In this document: positions 5,938-54,626 of the stretch, piece after piece
How the letters are laid out: the number at the start of each line of letters is the position of its first letter
Position numbering within the stretch: position 1 is the stretch's first letter
Assembly: GCF_000474745.1 (NCBI RefSeq)
Contig: NZ_ASJR01000013.1
Location: 1 to 64,000, forward strand
From: Chitinivibrio alkaliphilus ACht1
GTDB taxonomy: Bacteria; Fibrobacterota; Chitinivibrionia; Chitinivibrionales; Chitinivibrionaceae
DNA: 64,000 nt
Reading direction: 5' to 3'
Position numbers and translations under genes: made by a program
Notes under the pieces: model-generated
What the model was told of the DNA's origin: nothing
Databases searched by the model: none
What the model saw: only the letters and a program-made list of their open reading frames with translations

Positions 5938-7322
5938 TGATACGTCTTTTTTCTCTTTGTGTACTCCTCGGAGGTATCCTTGCCTGTTCGGTGCCACATC
6001 GGCCTATTCATACCGAACCGGTAGCACAGGATACTATCCATGCTACTGACACAGGAGCTGTTGCGGCAGAGGTGAAGCCCCCTGTCAAAGATTCCCAGGC
6101 GAAAGACGCTCCTCTTGTTGCTCCCAAAGCACCGCAACGGAAGGTTCGTGTTGCAGTAAAACGAGATCAGAAGGAGCTTCGTAGTATCTCCTATGGCCGG
6201 GCTCGATTGCGGAGCGGTGATCGTGAAATACGCCTTCCTGCTGGAGCGCTTTCTTTTTCCTCTGTTGCGGCGGGACGGGTCTCAGTTTCAGGTCATGGTC
6301 GGCAGGCAGAGTTGACCTTACCCTGTACCCTTACGGTGGTTGAAGATGCTGCCGTGGTTGATATCGGTGAAACAACCTACCGGGGAGGACTTATTCTCAA
6401 AGAAGATGCGGCGGGGATGCTCGTGATAAATTATGTTCCCGTAGAACAGTATCTTCGTGGGGTTGTTCCCTTAGAAATCGGACAGCGCAGTATGCGGGAG
6501 GTTCACGCCATGAAGGCCCAGGCCGTGGCTGCGCGAACCTACACCTATCGAAAGATGGAAGAGCGCAAAAAAGATGCCTTTGATCTCGTTGCCACAGTAC
6601 AAGATCAGGTGTATGGCGGCGTTTTTGCGGAGTACCGGGGAAGTGATCATGCCGTACGTCACACTGCAGGGCTTGTTATGTACTCCGGCGATTCTCTTGT
6701 GGAAGCCTTTTACCACTCAACTTGCGGAGGAAAAACCGCAAATATTGAAGATGTATGGCGTACCAATGCTCGGTCCTATCTCACAAGTCAGGCAGATACT
6801 CATGGAAGCGGTGTTTCTTGGTGTGCCCATTCTCCCCGGTATACTTGGGAAGAACGGTGGGAGCGGGATGCCTTTGAAAAAATGCTCTATGAACAAAGCA
6901 GGAAAATTGATGGGTATGAGGCGTTTTCGGGAAGTCTTACAGGGGTAGCGGTGACGCAACGTGCATCGTGTGGAAGAATTCTTGCATGCCGCATTACTTC
7001 CACTACTGGGGAGTGGGAGTACGGTGGTGATCGTATTCGTCATTTATTTCGGCATCCTGAGACGGGGGGAATACTGCATAGTGCCCATTTCTCAATCACC
7101 CTCAATGAAAATACGGTCGTTGCCCGTGGCAAGGGGTTTGGCCATGGTATAGGAATGTGTCAGATGGGAGCTATTGGGCAGGCACGAGCCGGGCTTTCTT
7201 TTTCAGACATTCTGCAGGGGTATTACGGCGGTACGAAAATAAAAAAATCGATGAAGCGCAGAAGTGATTCAATTATATTTGAAATGGTTTCTTTTTTAAT
7301 GGCAGATTGTGAGTGTTCATGA
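5937..7322 (+). CDS. SpoIID/LytB-domain lipoprotein
   Basis: Predicted lipoprotein with a SpoIID/LytB domain, a family that in Bacillus includes the peptidoglycan lytic transglycosylase SpoIID and the amidase enhancer LytB; here probably cell-wall remodelling, as nothing else in the window suggests sporulation. ATG 5937 gives a lipoprotein signal with lipobox LLGGILAC (Cys17), then a low-complexity Pro/Lys/Asp linker to about residue 65. SpoIID hallmarks follow: YLRGVVPLEIG, MKAQAVAARTY, STCGGKTAN and GHGIGMCQMGA. The last 24 residues beyond YYGGTKIKK do not look like the family. One extra A in the run 7241-7247 would end the protein at TGA 7265-7267 after KIDEAQK (443 residues), so the 3' end is uncertain. 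Confidence 0.88.
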   Translation: MIRLFSLCVLLGGILACSVPHRPIHTEPVAQDTIHATDTGAVAAEVKPPVKDSQAKDAPLVAPKAPQRKVRVAVKRDQKELRSISYGRARLRSGDREIRLPAGALSFSSVAAGRVSVSGHGRQAELTLPCTLTVVEDAAVVDIGETTYRGGLILKEDAAGMLVINYVPVEQYLRGVVPLEIGQRSMREVHAMKAQAVAARTYTYRKMEERKKDAFDLVATVQDQVYGGVFAEYRGSDHAVRHTAGLVMYSGDSLVEAFYHSTCGGKTANIEDVWRTNARSYLTSQADTHGSGVSWCAHSPRYTWEERWERDAFEKMLYEQSRKIDGYEAFSGSLTGVAVTQRASCGRILACRITSTTGEWEYGGDRIRHLFRHPETGGILHSAHFSITLNENTVVARGKGFGHGIGMCQMGAIGQARAGLSFSDILQGYYGGTKIKKSMKRRSDSIIFEMVSFLMADCECS

Positions 7323-9925
7323 ATCAAGATGCGGGATCAGTAAAAAAGTACAGCTATGTTTTGAACAATTCAAAACCGCAAATAGGTCTGCTTATTGAAA
7401 GTATTTCTGGGTCATACCAATCCGGTATTTGGCCGGGAATTATTGAAGTGGCTCGAGAACACGACGTGAATGTCATTTGTTTTACCGGTGGTGCTCTTAT
7501 GAAGTCCCCCGATGATCCGTGGGAGAAAGAGCGCAATATCCTCTATGACATTGCAGAGAAGAATCAACTGGACGGTATTCTTATTTCAGGAACTCTCTGT
7601 AGTTATATCTCCGAGACAGATATCCAGGAGTTTCTTGAGCGGTTTTCCCAGCTCCCCGTGGTAAGTCTTTTGCCGCTGTCTGAGAAAATCCCTTCTGTCT
7701 CAGTAAACAACACTGCCGGCATGAAACATTTGGTAGAACACCTTGCGGGGGGGCATAAATATACTCGATTTTCTTTCATCAAGGGTCCCGTGGGAAACCC
7801 TGAGGCAGATGAGCGCCTTTCCCTTCTGTGTAGCTGTCTGCGGGAATACAATCTTACTATTCGGAAAACCGATATGGCTCCGGGAGACTTTACTCGCGAG
7901 TCGGGGAAAAATGCCGTAGACCGGTTTCTACAGGCAGGCAATGGAGAAATTCCCTATGATGTTATTGTCTGTGCCGATGATGAGACTGCCTATGGTGCTA
8001 TCGAAGAACTTCGCCGTAATGGGATTCAAGTACCGGAAGATGTGGCGGTGGTTGGGTTTGACGATGAGGATGAAAGCTCATATATTACCCCACCTCTCAC
8101 AACAATCCGTCAGCCCTTTCATGAATTGGGTCGAAGGGCTTGCTCACTGCTTATGGATCGCATGGCAGATGTTGATGTTCCCCAGGAGACTGTTCTTGAT
8201 GCGTGCTTTGTAGTCCGTCAGTCCTGTGGCTGTTTTGAGCATACGGTTAAGAAGGCCTTCATAAAAAAAGCCTTAATTGAGAGTGTCTCTGCGCAAAGCA
8301 ATATTCGTGAAGAGCGTCTCTTCAAGTATGTGACGCGTAAAATCAGTGGTTCCTACGATGAGCTTTTGGCTGATACCCCGGGGCTTGACCAGGTACTCTC
8401 TGCTTTTTGCAGTGATGTTAATGCCAAGACAAGTACTTCTTTTCTCCAAGTATTTGACAGAGTTGGACGTGAGGCGATCCTTACAGGAAGTAATCTGCAA
8501 GGGTGGAAAAAAATATTCTCGTCTCTCTGGCATTTCTCCTTGTCAAATTTGGAACGAGAAAGCTTTTCCTATGCCGATGCTCTTTTGCACCGGGCCCGTA
8601 TTATCCAGAGTAACCTGATTCTTCGGGCACAGGGATATCGACGTATTGCAACACAGCGGGAGTATTCAAATATTCATACCATTGGCGAGCAAATAGCCAA
8701 TACCCTCGATCTTGATACGCTTTTGACCCTTGTGGCAGAGTCCTTTCCCGCCTTAGGTCTGGATACGTTTTTTATTACCTTTTATGAAGATCAAGACAAC
8801 CCTCTGAAAGAATCCCGTCTTGTTGCAGCTGTTGTTGATGGCGAGGTTCAGGCCATAAATGATACCTCCCTGAAACCCTTCTCTACGGGAAAACTGCTTC
8901 CGCCCGGGGTTATTTCAGGATCAGATGCGCACATTATTATTTCTGAGCCTCTGTATTTCCATAATGAACTTTTCGGGGTGGTTTACTTTCTGGTCGATTC
9001 AAGCACCTATGACGTGGATATCTTTGAAGTGTTGGGGAATTATTTAAGTACTGCCTTGCATACAAAATACTTAATTGATCGTGTGCAGGTGCAGGCAGAT
9101 ACGCTCCGTATTCAGAATGACGAGCTGCAAGAGCTCCGAAAAAAAGAAAAGGCTCACCTTGATTCGATAAAAACAGAACTGGAGATCGGTCGGCGTATTC
9201 AGATGAGTTTTCTTCCCCCCTCTGTATTTCAACCGGAAGGCTACTCAATTGATGTGTTTTTCCGTCCTGCCCGTGAAGTTTCGGGAGACTTTTATGATGT
9301 TGTTGATATTGATGAAACGACAGTGAGTATTCTCATTGCCGATGTGAGCGGGAAGGATGTGGGAGCTGCCCTCTTTATGTCCATTGTTAAGACATTGCTA
9401 CGTGTATTTGGTCTACAGGCTTCACGGGAAGGGAAATCACCCCTTGAAACGGTGAGTATTGTAAATGATTATGTAATTAAAGAGCATCAGCAGCCGCACG
9501 GCCGATGTATGTTTGCAACGCTTTTTTACGGTGTTTTTGATACTGAGTCGGGGAGGTTGCGCTATGTCAACGCTGGACATAATGCACCGCTTTTGTTTGA
9601 TGCAGAGGGGAGACTGAGGGAAGAACTAAAAACTGCCGCACCGGCAGTGGGGCTTGCTCCAAACATGGATTTCCCTATAAATGAAGTAACCCTTGAGCCG
9701 GGGGAGTTTCTCTTTTCTTATACCGATGGTGTAACGGAGGCACAGGACAGCTCTGGAGAGTTCTTTACGTTAAAACGAGTAATTGACCTTTTACAATCCA
9801 TGGAAATAACCGGTTCTCAGGAGCCTCTTAAGGCTATTGAAGAGGACCTTTCAGGGTTTACCAAGGATGCTGTTCCCTTTGATGATATCACCATGCTTGG
9901 AGTCTACCGGAGGAGTTATGACTAA
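7319..9925 (+). CDS. LacI-type ligand-binding domain fused to a PP2C/SpoIIE phosphatase
   Basis: Likely a cytoplasmic sensor-phosphatase. Residues about 10-305 form a periplasmic-binding-protein type 1 fold as in LacI/GalR regulators (IGLLIES, DGILISG, VCADDETAYG, VAVVGFDD, TTIRQP), but no helix-turn-helix precedes it, and it ends in a RQSCGC motif seen in other sugar-sensor signalling proteins. A helical section and a GAF-like segment (about 450-600) follow, then a coiled coil (about 600-640) leading into a PP2C-type SpoIIE phosphatase domain (EVSGDFYD, ADVSGKD, YVNAGHNAP, SYTDGVTEA, DDITMLG), which retains the acidic metal ligands. Such domains usually dephosphorylate anti-sigma-factor antagonists; no such partner is nearby. 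ATG 7319 overlaps the preceding stop (ATGA). Ligand and target unknown. Confidence 0.88.
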   Translation: MNQDAGSVKKYSYVLNNSKPQIGLLIESISGSYQSGIWPGIIEVAREHDVNVICFTGGALMKSPDDPWEKERNILYDIAEKNQLDGILISGTLCSYISETDIQEFLERFSQLPVVSLLPLSEKIPSVSVNNTAGMKHLVEHLAGGHKYTRFSFIKGPVGNPEADERLSLLCSCLREYNLTIRKTDMAPGDFTRESGKNAVDRFLQAGNGEIPYDVIVCADDETAYGAIEELRRNGIQVPEDVAVVGFDDEDESSYITPPLTTIRQPFHELGRRACSLLMDRMADVDVPQETVLDACFVVRQSCGCFEHTVKKAFIKKALIESVSAQSNIREERLFKYVTRKISGSYDELLADTPGLDQVLSAFCSDVNAKTSTSFLQVFDRVGREAILTGSNLQGWKKIFSSLWHFSLSNLERESFSYADALLHRARIIQSNLILRAQGYRRIATQREYSNIHTIGEQIANTLDLDTLLTLVAESFPALGLDTFFITFYEDQDNPLKESRLVAAVVDGEVQAINDTSLKPFSTGKLLPPGVISGSDAHIIISEPLYFHNELFGVVYFLVDSSTYDVDIFEVLGNYLSTALHTKYLIDRVQVQADTLRIQNDELQELRKKEKAHLDSIKTELEIGRRIQMSFLPPSVFQPEGYSIDVFFRPAREVSGDFYDVVDIDETTVSILIADVSGKDVGAALFMSIVKTLLRVFGLQASREGKSPLETVSIVNDYVIKEHQQPHGRCMFATLFYGVFDTESGRLRYVNAGHNAPLLFDAEGRLREELKTAAPAVGLAPNMDFPINEVTLEPGEFLFSYTDGVTEAQDSSGEFFTLKRVIDLLQSMEITGSQEPLKAIEEDLSGFTKDAVPFDDITMLGVYRRSYD

Positions 9926-18559: not shown

Positions 18560-20785
18560 CTAAGGAAGATACGTTTTAATTGTATTGACGATTGTTTCTG
18601 TTGTGGCGGTTTTGGTAATGTAGCCTGCCATGCCTGCAGAAAGACACTCTTCTTTTTCTCCATTTGCTGTATAGGCAATGACTTGGGCCTTTGGATTTAC
18701 GCGATGAATCTGTTCTGTGGCAGAAAAACCATCCATGACGGGCATTTGGATATCCATGAGTATGAGATCAAATTCTTCAGGAGAATTTGCATAGATTTCC
18801 ACGGCTTCCAAGCCATTCTCTACGGCTGTTGTTTGAAAGTGCATTTTCTCCAGAAGTCGGCAAATCATTCGTCGATTAATTTGGTTGTCTTCTGCAACAA
18901 GAAGGTGTTTCTTCTGCGTTGGTGAAACGGTTGTTTCACTGCCTGCCTCGAGGGGGATTTTCACTTTAAAAATAGTTCCAATACCCTTTCTACTTGAAAA
19001 ACTCAAGGTTCCATCCATGGATTTAAGCAGATGTTTTACAATACAGAGCCCAATGCCGAGGCCGTCATATCTTTGCGAGATATTCCCCTCTTCTTCCCGG
19101 TTAAAGGCATAAAAAAGCTCACTGCGATAGGACGGAGTGATGCCACAACCTGTATCGGAAACACGGATGCTAAAGGCATCATGCACGTAGGAAAGCTTCA
19201 CGCTTATTTTTCCCTCATGGGTAAATTTTATCGCATTGGAGAGAAGATTATCTGTGATAAGGGAAACCTTTTCAACATCCCCCACAAGATATTCAGGAAG
19301 ATTTTTCGAAACAGTGAGGAAAACTTCATTTCCCTGTTCTTCTGCTTTTTTGCTATTATACTCAATAATTTCTTGGACCCTTTTATAGGGTGAAAAAAGA
19401 ACGGGGGTGTTATGTAGCTTTTTATGCTGAATTCGCTCATAATAAAACAGGTTGCTTACGGTAAGGCTGAGATGATTTGTACTGGTTTTCAGTTCAGATA
19501 GTTCACTTGGAGTTGAACCCGCGCATTCCAAGGACTTTATCAAACCAACAACTGCTGATAAGGGCGTTTTAATTTCATGAGAAAGGGTTTTGATAAAACT
19601 GTCTTGTCGATTCAATAGTTGCTGTTGCTGTTTTCGTATTTGTGAGAGGCTTTGCAAGGCGTTTTTGAGCTCGTAGCTATATCGTTGTCCCCGCTCCTGT
19701 TCTTCTCGTATGTGTATACCAATAGAGCCTATAAACGAGAAAAAGAGTAAGGCATGTCCGTATGATGACAACCAAACTGGAGGAAATACTTCCTGCACAA
19801 TATGATAGATGTCGTAGATACCTCCGATAAAAAAGAGGCCAAATCCTGCAATAAGAAGCAGGTTTTCTTTTTTTCTATCGTAGTACGTTGCATAAATAAG
19901 TATTGTTACGGTAAGTATATTGACAGGGAGTATGTAGTAGAGTAGGACACTGCTGTGAAACTCAACAAGCTGGGCTTTTGTTGCGATAAATACAGTGTAG
20001 ATACTAATAGGAAGAGCGGGGAGTAACACGATTTTTGAATAGAGATTTTTAAGGTAGTAGTCTGAGAAATCGAGTACTGCAAGAAAAAGAATTCCAGGAA
20101 AAAGTGTTAAGGAGATGCGAGATATACGGAACAAAAGCAACTCTTTGATGGGCATCGTATCAAATAAAAAAATTGCATAGGTGAAGAAAATTAAGATGCC
20201 CGAGCATGAAAAGTAGAGAATGTATCGACGTTTGTGCGGCATAATGACGTAATAATAGGTGGTGAAAATGGAGATTGCCGCGATAAGAAAAATAAAAGCT
20301 TGAATAAGGTCAGAATTAAAGAATACATTATGGGCTTTACGTCTTCTAATCTCTTCGTATGAGCCTATGAGGAGTGGTTCAAGGGGGCTTCGTAGCCCAT
20401 CACTTCTAAACCGAAGGCGTATGTTTTGCGGGCCAGATCTGCTATTAAGCACAGCCATATCAGCTTGATATCGCCCTTTTATATCAGAATCAGTGACATC
20501 GGCCCAGCGATACACTAAGGTGGTATCAATGTAAATTTTTGTGGGATATGCTAATTGTGGGATAAATAGGTAGGCTTCGTTCAGCACTGTGTCGAGGGGG
20601 ATGACCCCCGTGAGGTCGTATAGCCCGGCCTTGGTGATAGGCAGGCTTCCTCCATCATAGGGGATGTGTGAATCCGTACTATGGCAGTAGATTCCAGTAT
20701 ATTCCATTTTGTACACGGAGGTTGCATGCACAAGAATGGGAAAAAGAATACACCCTAGAGCGTAGAGGAAGAGCCGTGGTTTCAC
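18560..20785 (-). CDS. 7TM-sensor hybrid histidine kinase
   Basis: 741-residue inner-membrane sensor kinase. A signal peptide (1-22) and an extracytoplasmic jelly-roll-like domain (about 25-155) precede seven predicted membrane helices (about 160-350), the arrangement of 7TMR-DISM receptors, which often bind carbohydrates. A short coiled coil leads to HisKA with His403 (LSHEIKTPLS), then HATPase_c (N box DNLLSNAIKF, G1 DTGCGI, G2 DGLGIGL) and a C-terminal receiver with Asp678 (LMDIQMPVMDG). Start is GTG 20785, preceded by GGAAGGAT. Next to a membrane AraC regulator. No dedicated response regulator or Hpt protein is seen nearby. Confidence 0.92.
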   Translation of the reverse strand: MKPRLFLYALGCILFPILVHATSVYKMEYTGIYCHSTDSHIPYDGGSLPITKAGLYDLTGVIPLDTVLNEAYLFIPQLAYPTKIYIDTTLVYRWADVTDSDIKGRYQADMAVLNSRSGPQNIRLRFRSDGLRSPLEPLLIGSYEEIRRRKAHNVFFNSDLIQAFIFLIAAISIFTTYYYVIMPHKRRYILYFSCSGILIFFTYAIFLFDTMPIKELLLFRISRISLTLFPGILFLAVLDFSDYYLKNLYSKIVLLPALPISIYTVFIATKAQLVEFHSSVLLYYILPVNILTVTILIYATYYDRKKENLLLIAGFGLFFIGGIYDIYHIVQEVFPPVWLSSYGHALLFFSFIGSIGIHIREEQERGQRYSYELKNALQSLSQIRKQQQQLLNRQDSFIKTLSHEIKTPLSAVVGLIKSLECAGSTPSELSELKTSTNHLSLTVSNLFYYERIQHKKLHNTPVLFSPYKRVQEIIEYNSKKAEEQGNEVFLTVSKNLPEYLVGDVEKVSLITDNLLSNAIKFTHEGKISVKLSYVHDAFSIRVSDTGCGITPSYRSELFYAFNREEEGNISQRYDGLGIGLCIVKHLLKSMDGTLSFSSRKGIGTIFKVKIPLEAGSETTVSPTQKKHLLVAEDNQINRRMICRLLEKMHFQTTAVENGLEAVEIYANSPEEFDLILMDIQMPVMDGFSATEQIHRVNPKAQVIAYTANGEKEECLSAGMAGYITKTATTETIVNTIKTYLP

Positions 20786-53278: not shown

Positions 53279-53381
53279 CTCTTTTTACAAGATATCCATG
53301 GGCACAGGTGTGCTCCTTCCACGAGTGTATCAGATAAAAGGATCTGGCGTAATATATTTTGCTTGTACGAAGGAGCGTTAT

Positions 53382-54626
53382 ATGTTAGAAGATATCCAAA
53401 ATCTTCCCTTGTGGAAGAGTCTTAATACTGAGGTACGGCAGTTTTGCTTGTTTGTTACCGACACCTATGAATTTACTTTTCAGCAGAAGCGGCAGCTTTT
53501 GATATGGAGCGTTGATTTACAAATGTGGGGGTGTACTATAACACCCCTCAAGAATATGCTAGAGTGGAATGATAAGGCGACACGTAAGCAGAATGCCAGA
53601 GCTGCAGTTTCGTGCATACACACCTTTTGGAAGTCGAAAAAAAACGAGGGCCCTTTTTATTCAGGTGAAGGATTTGCGCCCAGTGATATTTCTCCACGGG
53701 TGCGTCGTGAAGATCGTCGTAGGAAAATTTTAGGAGAGTGCCCGGTGGCGTCGGAAAAGACGAGGTGCTGTAATTTAAAAACCCTTGATGCTGTACAGGG
53801 GTGTGGGTATGGGTGCTCCTACTGCTCTATTCAGTCTTTTTATTCAGGAGGCGAGGTGGTTTTTGATTCGCGTCTTTCTGAGCGCCTTAAGGAGCTTTCT
53901 CTGGAAAAAGATCGAATCTACCATATTGGTACGGGGCAGTCTTCCGATTCACTCATGTGGGGCAATACGAATAATCATCTTGCAGATCTGATGCATTTTG
54001 CAGATACGCACGAGCAGGTCATTCTTGAGCTTAAAACAAAATCCAATCGTGTTGATTGGTTGTTGGAGCATGAAATACCACGAAATGTAATCTGTACCTG
54101 GTCACTAAATCCACAGGATGTTATTTCCGCAGAAGAACATCATACTGCATCTTTACAGGATCGCTTGGATGCTGCTGAGAAAGTGGCACGGGCCGGGATA
54201 CGTGTGGGCTTTCATTTTCACCCCATGATGAGATATCACGGGTGGAAAGAAGGATATGGTACGATTTGTAGGATTCTCCAAGAACGATTTTCTCCCACGG
54301 AAGTTGTGTCAATTTCCTTTGGAGCCTTAACATTTATCAAGCCGGTTCTGAAAAAACTTCGTCAACGCGCTCTGCCCAGTCGAGTCTTGCAAATGCCCTT
54401 CGAAGAGATCGCTGGGCGATTTTCATATCCCCGAGAGATTAAAAAAGAGCTGTTTTCATACGCATATAATTGTTTCTCCCCTGGGTGGAAAGAGAGTGTA
54501 TTCTTTTATTTATGTATGGAGGATGCAACACTTTGGAAAGAGGTTTTTGGTTTTGAGTATTCCAGTAATGAAGCTTTGGAAGCATCTATGAATCAATGGT
54601 ATATGCGTAAAATTTCAGAAAAATAA
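53382..54626 (+). CDS. SPL-family radical SAM protein (spore-photoproduct-lyase-like)
   Basis: 414 residues with the radical SAM cluster Cys141-x3-Cys145-x2-Cys148 (CGYGCSYC), flanked by LKTLDAVQG, plus IGTGQSSDS and HFHPMM segments typical of the spore photoproduct lyase family. ATG 53382 is set by AAGGAG six bases upstream. In spore-formers this family repairs UV lesions; related proteins in non-sporulating bacteria have no firm function. An N-terminal helical region (1-100) precedes the barrel. Monocistronic, facing the rpsD terminator. Confidence 0.85.
   Translation: MLEDIQNLPLWKSLNTEVRQFCLFVTDTYEFTFQQKRQLLIWSVDLQMWGCTITPLKNMLEWNDKATRKQNARAAVSCIHTFWKSKKNEGPFYSGEGFAPSDISPRVRREDRRRKILGECPVASEKTRCCNLKTLDAVQGCGYGCSYCSIQSFYSGGEVVFDSRLSERLKELSLEKDRIYHIGTGQSSDSLMWGNTNNHLADLMHFADTHEQVILELKTKSNRVDWLLEHEIPRNVICTWSLNPQDVISAEEHHTASLQDRLDAAEKVARAGIRVGFHFHPMMRYHGWKEGYGTICRILQERFSPTEVVSISFGALTFIKPVLKKLRQRALPSRVLQMPFEEIAGRFSYPREIKKELFSYAYNCFSPGWKESVFFYLCMEDATLWKEVFGFEYSSNEALEASMNQWYMRKISEK

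Follow-up and report, generated by a model that had tools for sequence, protein, structure and literature searches.

A LacI-type ligand domain joined to a SpoIIE-type phosphatase in Chitinivibrio alkaliphilus, a putative soluble receptor-phosphatase

A single gene of Chitinivibrio alkaliphilus ACht1 encodes a protein of 868 amino acids in which a LacI-type sensor is followed by a spacer, a GAF-like segment, a coiled coil and a SpoIIE-type PP2C phosphatase (7319..9925, + strand, of the 64,000-nt stretch of DNA analysed here, referred to as the window), an arrangement supported by the open reading frame, Pfam and NCBIfam matches and orthologues. All parts are of known kinds; for a LacI-type input on a PP2C output we found no published description in titles, abstracts and passages of the open-licence literature, nor any LacI-SpoIIE fusion. 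The combination of a headless LacI sensor with a SpoIIE phosphatase suggests that protein phosphorylation is probably switched in response to a small molecule inside the cell. On balance, we lean towards a soluble, ligand-gated receptor-phosphatase acting on a STAS/HATPase partner switch. More tentatively, we propose direct control of the PP2C by a LacI-type sugar receptor, with the phosphatase working in trans on a STAS/HATPase switch common to the lineage and being one output of a sensor cassette.

Results

Gene context and domain architecture

The frame runs uninterrupted from an ATG at 7319 to a stop codon ending at 9925, with a GTG in frame slightly ahead of it (7313), and its start overlaps the stop of a SpoIID-like upstream gene by 4 bases. 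The neighbours in the window are lnt, def, the SpoIID-like gene, an acylphosphatase gene and radA, and no STAS or anti-sigma gene was found beside 7319-9925 within the 64,000-nt window, in agreement with an earlier sequence-only reading of this DNA. No membrane segment was found, the maximum 19-residue Kyte-Doolittle value being 1.72 and lying inside the PP2C core; as a best explanation we propose that the protein is a soluble cytoplasmic receptor-phosphatase. Elsewhere in the window lie a hybrid histidine kinase with a receiver domain (18560-20785, - strand) and, in this Gram-negative lineage, a spore-photoproduct-lyase-like protein (53298-54626, + strand).

The N-terminal part is a LacI/GalR periplasmic-binding-like ligand domain without an HTH (aa 20-303; 7376..8227, + strand), identified by Pfam and NCBIfam matches and by alignment to LacI-family proteins. 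Pfam reports Peripla_BP_3 at 5e-31 (aa 140-303) and Peripla_BP_1 at 3e-12 (aa 20-289). A family profile search of the 868-aa protein returned no HTH family, and as the ligand domain is preceded by 19 residues only, there is no room for the HTH head of a repressor; the sequence-only description of a ligand domain lacking its DNA-binding head thus holds. The domain aligns over its full length with LacI/GalR repressors (CcpA, RbsR, PurR, CytR), and R166 and D248, which are invariant in all 27 full-length phosphatase fusions, align with the ligand-anchoring Arg/Asp of this family, presumably the equivalents of the ligand-holding R197/D274 of LacI and R190/D275 of PurR. Unlike these repressors, the fusion has no HTH and continues into an SCGC motif, the spacer, the GAF-like segment and an enzyme output.

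Directly behind the LacI fold, the module alignment places the motif R-Q-S-C-G-C (aa 300-305; 8216..8233, + strand). R-x-S-C-G-C is nearly constant at this position whatever the output (seen in L054-L093, L103 and L174-L178), and SCGC itself is invariant in 41 of 41 compared modules carrying four different outputs. It is also kept in Bacillota_A versions of the module; a Deinococcus module reads RQSCGT, the second cysteine being lost, and the aligned repressor 9nt3 reads ReSta at the SCGC position. Candidate roles for the motif are metal binding, redox chemistry and structure. A stand-alone headless LacI sensor of 371 aa, with SCGC and no output domain, was also observed (G000 C11:54257-55102; L104:6066-7181).

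The middle of the protein is less sharply defined. Residues 306-445 (8234..8653, + strand) belong to no known family and are predicted, at low confidence, to form an all-helical spacer; the single-sequence structure model of this middle region has a pLDDT of 44.7 and was taken as 'helical' only. It is followed by a GAF-like segment (aa 455-590; 8681..9088, + strand) with a weak match to Pfam GAF_2 (E=0.037 when the whole protein is searched, 5.6e-4 when the segment is cut out, which falls below the Pfam cut-off), a family that appears at E<=1 in 9 of 31 homologous segments; its best PDB profile match is a histidine kinase (E=0.014). A coiled-coil or signalling-helix linker can be read by eye from the sequence at about aa 583-630 (9065..9208, + strand), with E610, E620, L621, I627 and Q628 conserved. 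The coiled coil of the sequence-only reading is therefore plain, and its GAF-like segment is supported weakly, by a match that stays below the Pfam cut-off.

The output is a SpoIIE/RsbU-type PP2C phosphatase domain (aa 640-864; 9236..9910, + strand), recognised by Pfam and by alignment with solved PP2Cs. PF07228 matches aa 666-862 at E=3.5e-44, and a SpoIIE-family PP2C domain is present in 27 of 27 full-length proteins. The site residues G656-D657, D675, T802-D803-G804 and D855-D856 are invariant across the same set, and D657, D675, D803 and D855/D856, candidate metal ligands, align with solved PP2Cs. The metal residues of SpoIIE are D628, D746 and D795 (PMC5468089); the equivalent Asp ligands and the GD motif are all present. 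The sequence-only reading had called this domain a SpoIIE-type phosphatase and tied that call to retention of the metal-binding residues, which their invariance in 27 proteins bears out. Judged from these residues, the catalytic site is complete and the phosphatase is predicted to be functional. Like the PPM phosphatases RsbU, RsbP and SpoIIE, the protein combines a C-terminal PP2C with a complete metal site, a coiled-coil linker, N-terminal sensors and STAS partners in the genome. It differs from them in its sensor, a LacI-type domain in place of the inputs named for PPM phosphatases, namely the RsbU N-terminal domain, PAS, GAF-only, receiver and HAMP (PMC12143880). The anatomy fits a scheme of sensor, linker and PP2C in which the input is a LacI-type ligand domain.

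The sensor module is shared with other outputs

The query stretch 17-610 recurs within the order at about 24-31% identity, joined there to GGDEF, HisKA-HATPase and chemoreceptor (MCPsignal) outputs. In other lineages (loci L174-L178) the C-termini of the module were read from the sequence as HD-GYP and histidine kinases, the HD-GYP version of the LacI-spacer-GAF module occurring in another phylum, and Deinococcus peraridilitoris WP_015231178.1 carries the module with a GGDEF-EAL output. LacI-like (Periplas_BP) input for diguanylate cyclases and c-di-GMP sensors is mentioned in general terms in a review (PMC8846402). Such cyclases and their kin, WP_015231178.1 among them, share the LacI-spacer-GAF module (query 17-610) and the SCG(C) motif with the window protein and differ from it in ending in GGDEF, GGDEF-EAL, HD-GYP, a histidine kinase or a chemoreceptor, not PP2C. 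The other outputs joined to this sensor act through dimeric helical linkers, which matches the exchangeable-linker model (PMC12143880). As part of our more tentative proposal, LacI-SCGC-helical-GAF would be a cross-phylum cassette that has been combined with six or more types of output.

Distribution, descent and genomic linkage of the fusion

Of the 40 genomes of the order covered by a family profile search, 26 carry a full-length LacI-SpoIIE fusion, in one case split over two contigs; they comprise 5 of 5 genomes in family f1, 20 from f4 and a single one from f2. Identity to the window protein ranges from 31 to 55%. Outputs cluster strongly on the tree of sensor modules (5 changes vs 17.7 when shuffled), and 26 of the 27 phosphatase fusions form one group, albeit with weak support (82); the remaining fusion, L076, sits on a long branch of unsure placement. 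The clustering and this group fit one main origin of the phosphatase fusion followed by descent.

A Lachnospiraceae locus from the contig scan was dismissed as a relative, as it matches part of the LacI domain only and is not a fusion. In 399 genomes of its phylum the sensor module turned up with other outputs, and no full-length phosphatase fusion was found among the matches listed (at most two candidates scored per genome). Plasmid tblastn gave no record covering 80% of the query, the matches consisting of separate LacI or PP2C hits and one LacI-GGDEF-EAL protein. In two f1 genomes, the fusion gene is followed after 2-3 bp by a gene for a small cysteine-containing protein (L056:9254-9688, L057:1916-2344); the two copies, 144 and 142 aa long, are 55% identical, belong to no Pfam family and represent a candidate partner.

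The sole clue to the ligand is linkage to a GH94 gene. In 13 of 26 orthologous loci the fusion is preceded, in the same orientation, by this gene (at least 60% identical to the L058 copy), and in 11 of those 13 the two are directly adjacent (gaps of -4 to 582 bp). Its closest structure is cellobiose phosphorylase (3qde, 1.6e-158), followed by chitobiose phosphorylase (4e-134). Based on this linkage, the ligand in family f4 may reasonably be guessed to be a beta-linked disaccharide or its product. C. alkaliphilus itself lacks this GH94 orthologue and has only distant GH94 proteins, about 30% identical. In an organism specialised on chitin, a sugar derived from that polymer is plausible as ligand, without support from gene position.

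Candidate partner-switch proteins in the genome

The genome was scanned for partners over 2,591,328 bases in 99 contigs (GC 46.0% in the window, 46.4% in sampled contigs). STAS and HATPase proteins, which the sequence-only reading had proposed to search for and whose absence would have spoken against it, are both present, and that objection falls away. The genome encodes four SpoIIE-type phosphatases: the C9 protein, a receiver-PP2C-HATPase with its own HATPase and a STAS gene nearby; the C7 protein, encoded between two genes for FeFe-hydrogenase large subunits (C7:101198-101776; L097:6689-7885); and the C5 protein and the window protein, both encoded by orphan genes. Eight STAS matches were found, and in four of them the SpoIIAA/RsbV site still has a residue that can be phosphorylated: C14 (NSTGLG), C9 (DSTGIG), C6 (DSSALG) and C1 (DSTDLG). 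The C14 genes form a triad of HATPase, STAS-HATPase and STAS in a row, without a phosphatase (C14:17511-19068; L094:8476-10072), in which the STAS part of the STAS-HATPase fusion lacks the phosphorylatable serine. Six proteins have sigma-70 region 2, none assignable to the phosphatase. Partner-switch phosphatases are often, though not always, encoded together with their STAS/HATPase partners; no STAS gene lies near the fusion at any of the 26 orthologous loci examined. The C14-type STAS is almost universal in the order, also where the fusion is lacking, and co-occurrence therefore does not single out C14. Since the other phosphatases partly have a context of their own, we infer by elimination that the likeliest target is the C14 triad, or else one of the orphan STAS proteins of C6 and C1.

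Discussion

In the most likely reading, the phosphatase, and through it a STAS switch, responds to an intracellular sugar; the ligand class, the direction of control and the STAS target are what we infer. A small molecule, most probably a sugar or an oligosaccharide breakdown product, would close the two-lobed LacI-type domain, and the change would be relayed within a dimer, via the helical spacer, the GAF-like segment and the coiled coil, to the PP2C switch helices, altering metal binding and activity. The phosphatase would then dephosphorylate one or more STAS-domain antagonists, and the dephosphorylated STAS would shift an anti-sigma-type (HATPase) partner switch. The suggestion of the sequence-only reading that a partner-switching cascade answers to a soluble ligand may accordingly be kept at the strength of a proposal.

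That the fusion is degenerate, non-functional or an artefact of joined frames deserves almost no credence: the architecture is unusual, but the frame is open in 26 of 40 genomes and the catalytic residues are invariant, and such conservation rules this reading out and argues against chance or a mis-joined frame. An unlikely, if more serious, alternative concerns the input. The LacI-type domain might be a constitutive dimerisation or redox module and not a sugar sensor; the input would then be redox state or metal, read through the SCGC cysteine pair, or would arrive by way of the GAF-like segment. The constancy of SCGC in all 41 modules regardless of output, its persistence in Bacillota_A and the ReSta of the repressor 9nt3 would suit such a role; however, the ligand anchors R166 and D248 are likewise invariant in the 27 phosphatase fusions, the Deinococcus version does without the second cysteine, and the GH94 linkage points to sugars.

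Less probable still is a different target, a hydrogenase-type CBS-HATPase switch with CBS-HATPase/DRTGG proteins, through which the supply of sugar would bear on the control of hydrogenase or fermentation. Both genomes of genus g11 have a CBS-HATPase gene 2 or 88 bp behind the phosphatase gene, and the window genome has a CBS-HATPase orthologue at C10:94979-95851 beside DRTGG-type genes. Yet the adjacency is confined to one genus, genome G002 keeps the fusion with no CBS-HATPase match, and the C7 protein between the hydrogenase genes is a more natural hydrogenase partner. As CBS-HATPase is found elsewhere with DRTGG-type genes, its link to the phosphatase appears secondary, and we retain the STAS/HATPase partner switch as the favoured target.

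How PP2C partner-switch sensors perceive signals and pass them on is largely open. In this order a natural test is at hand, since every one of these types of output carries the same recognisable sensor module. LacI-family proteins are the best understood sugar-binding allosteric proteins, and since the sensor is predicted to be soluble and belongs to this family, its ligand, the affinity for it and its effect on the enzyme should be directly measurable.
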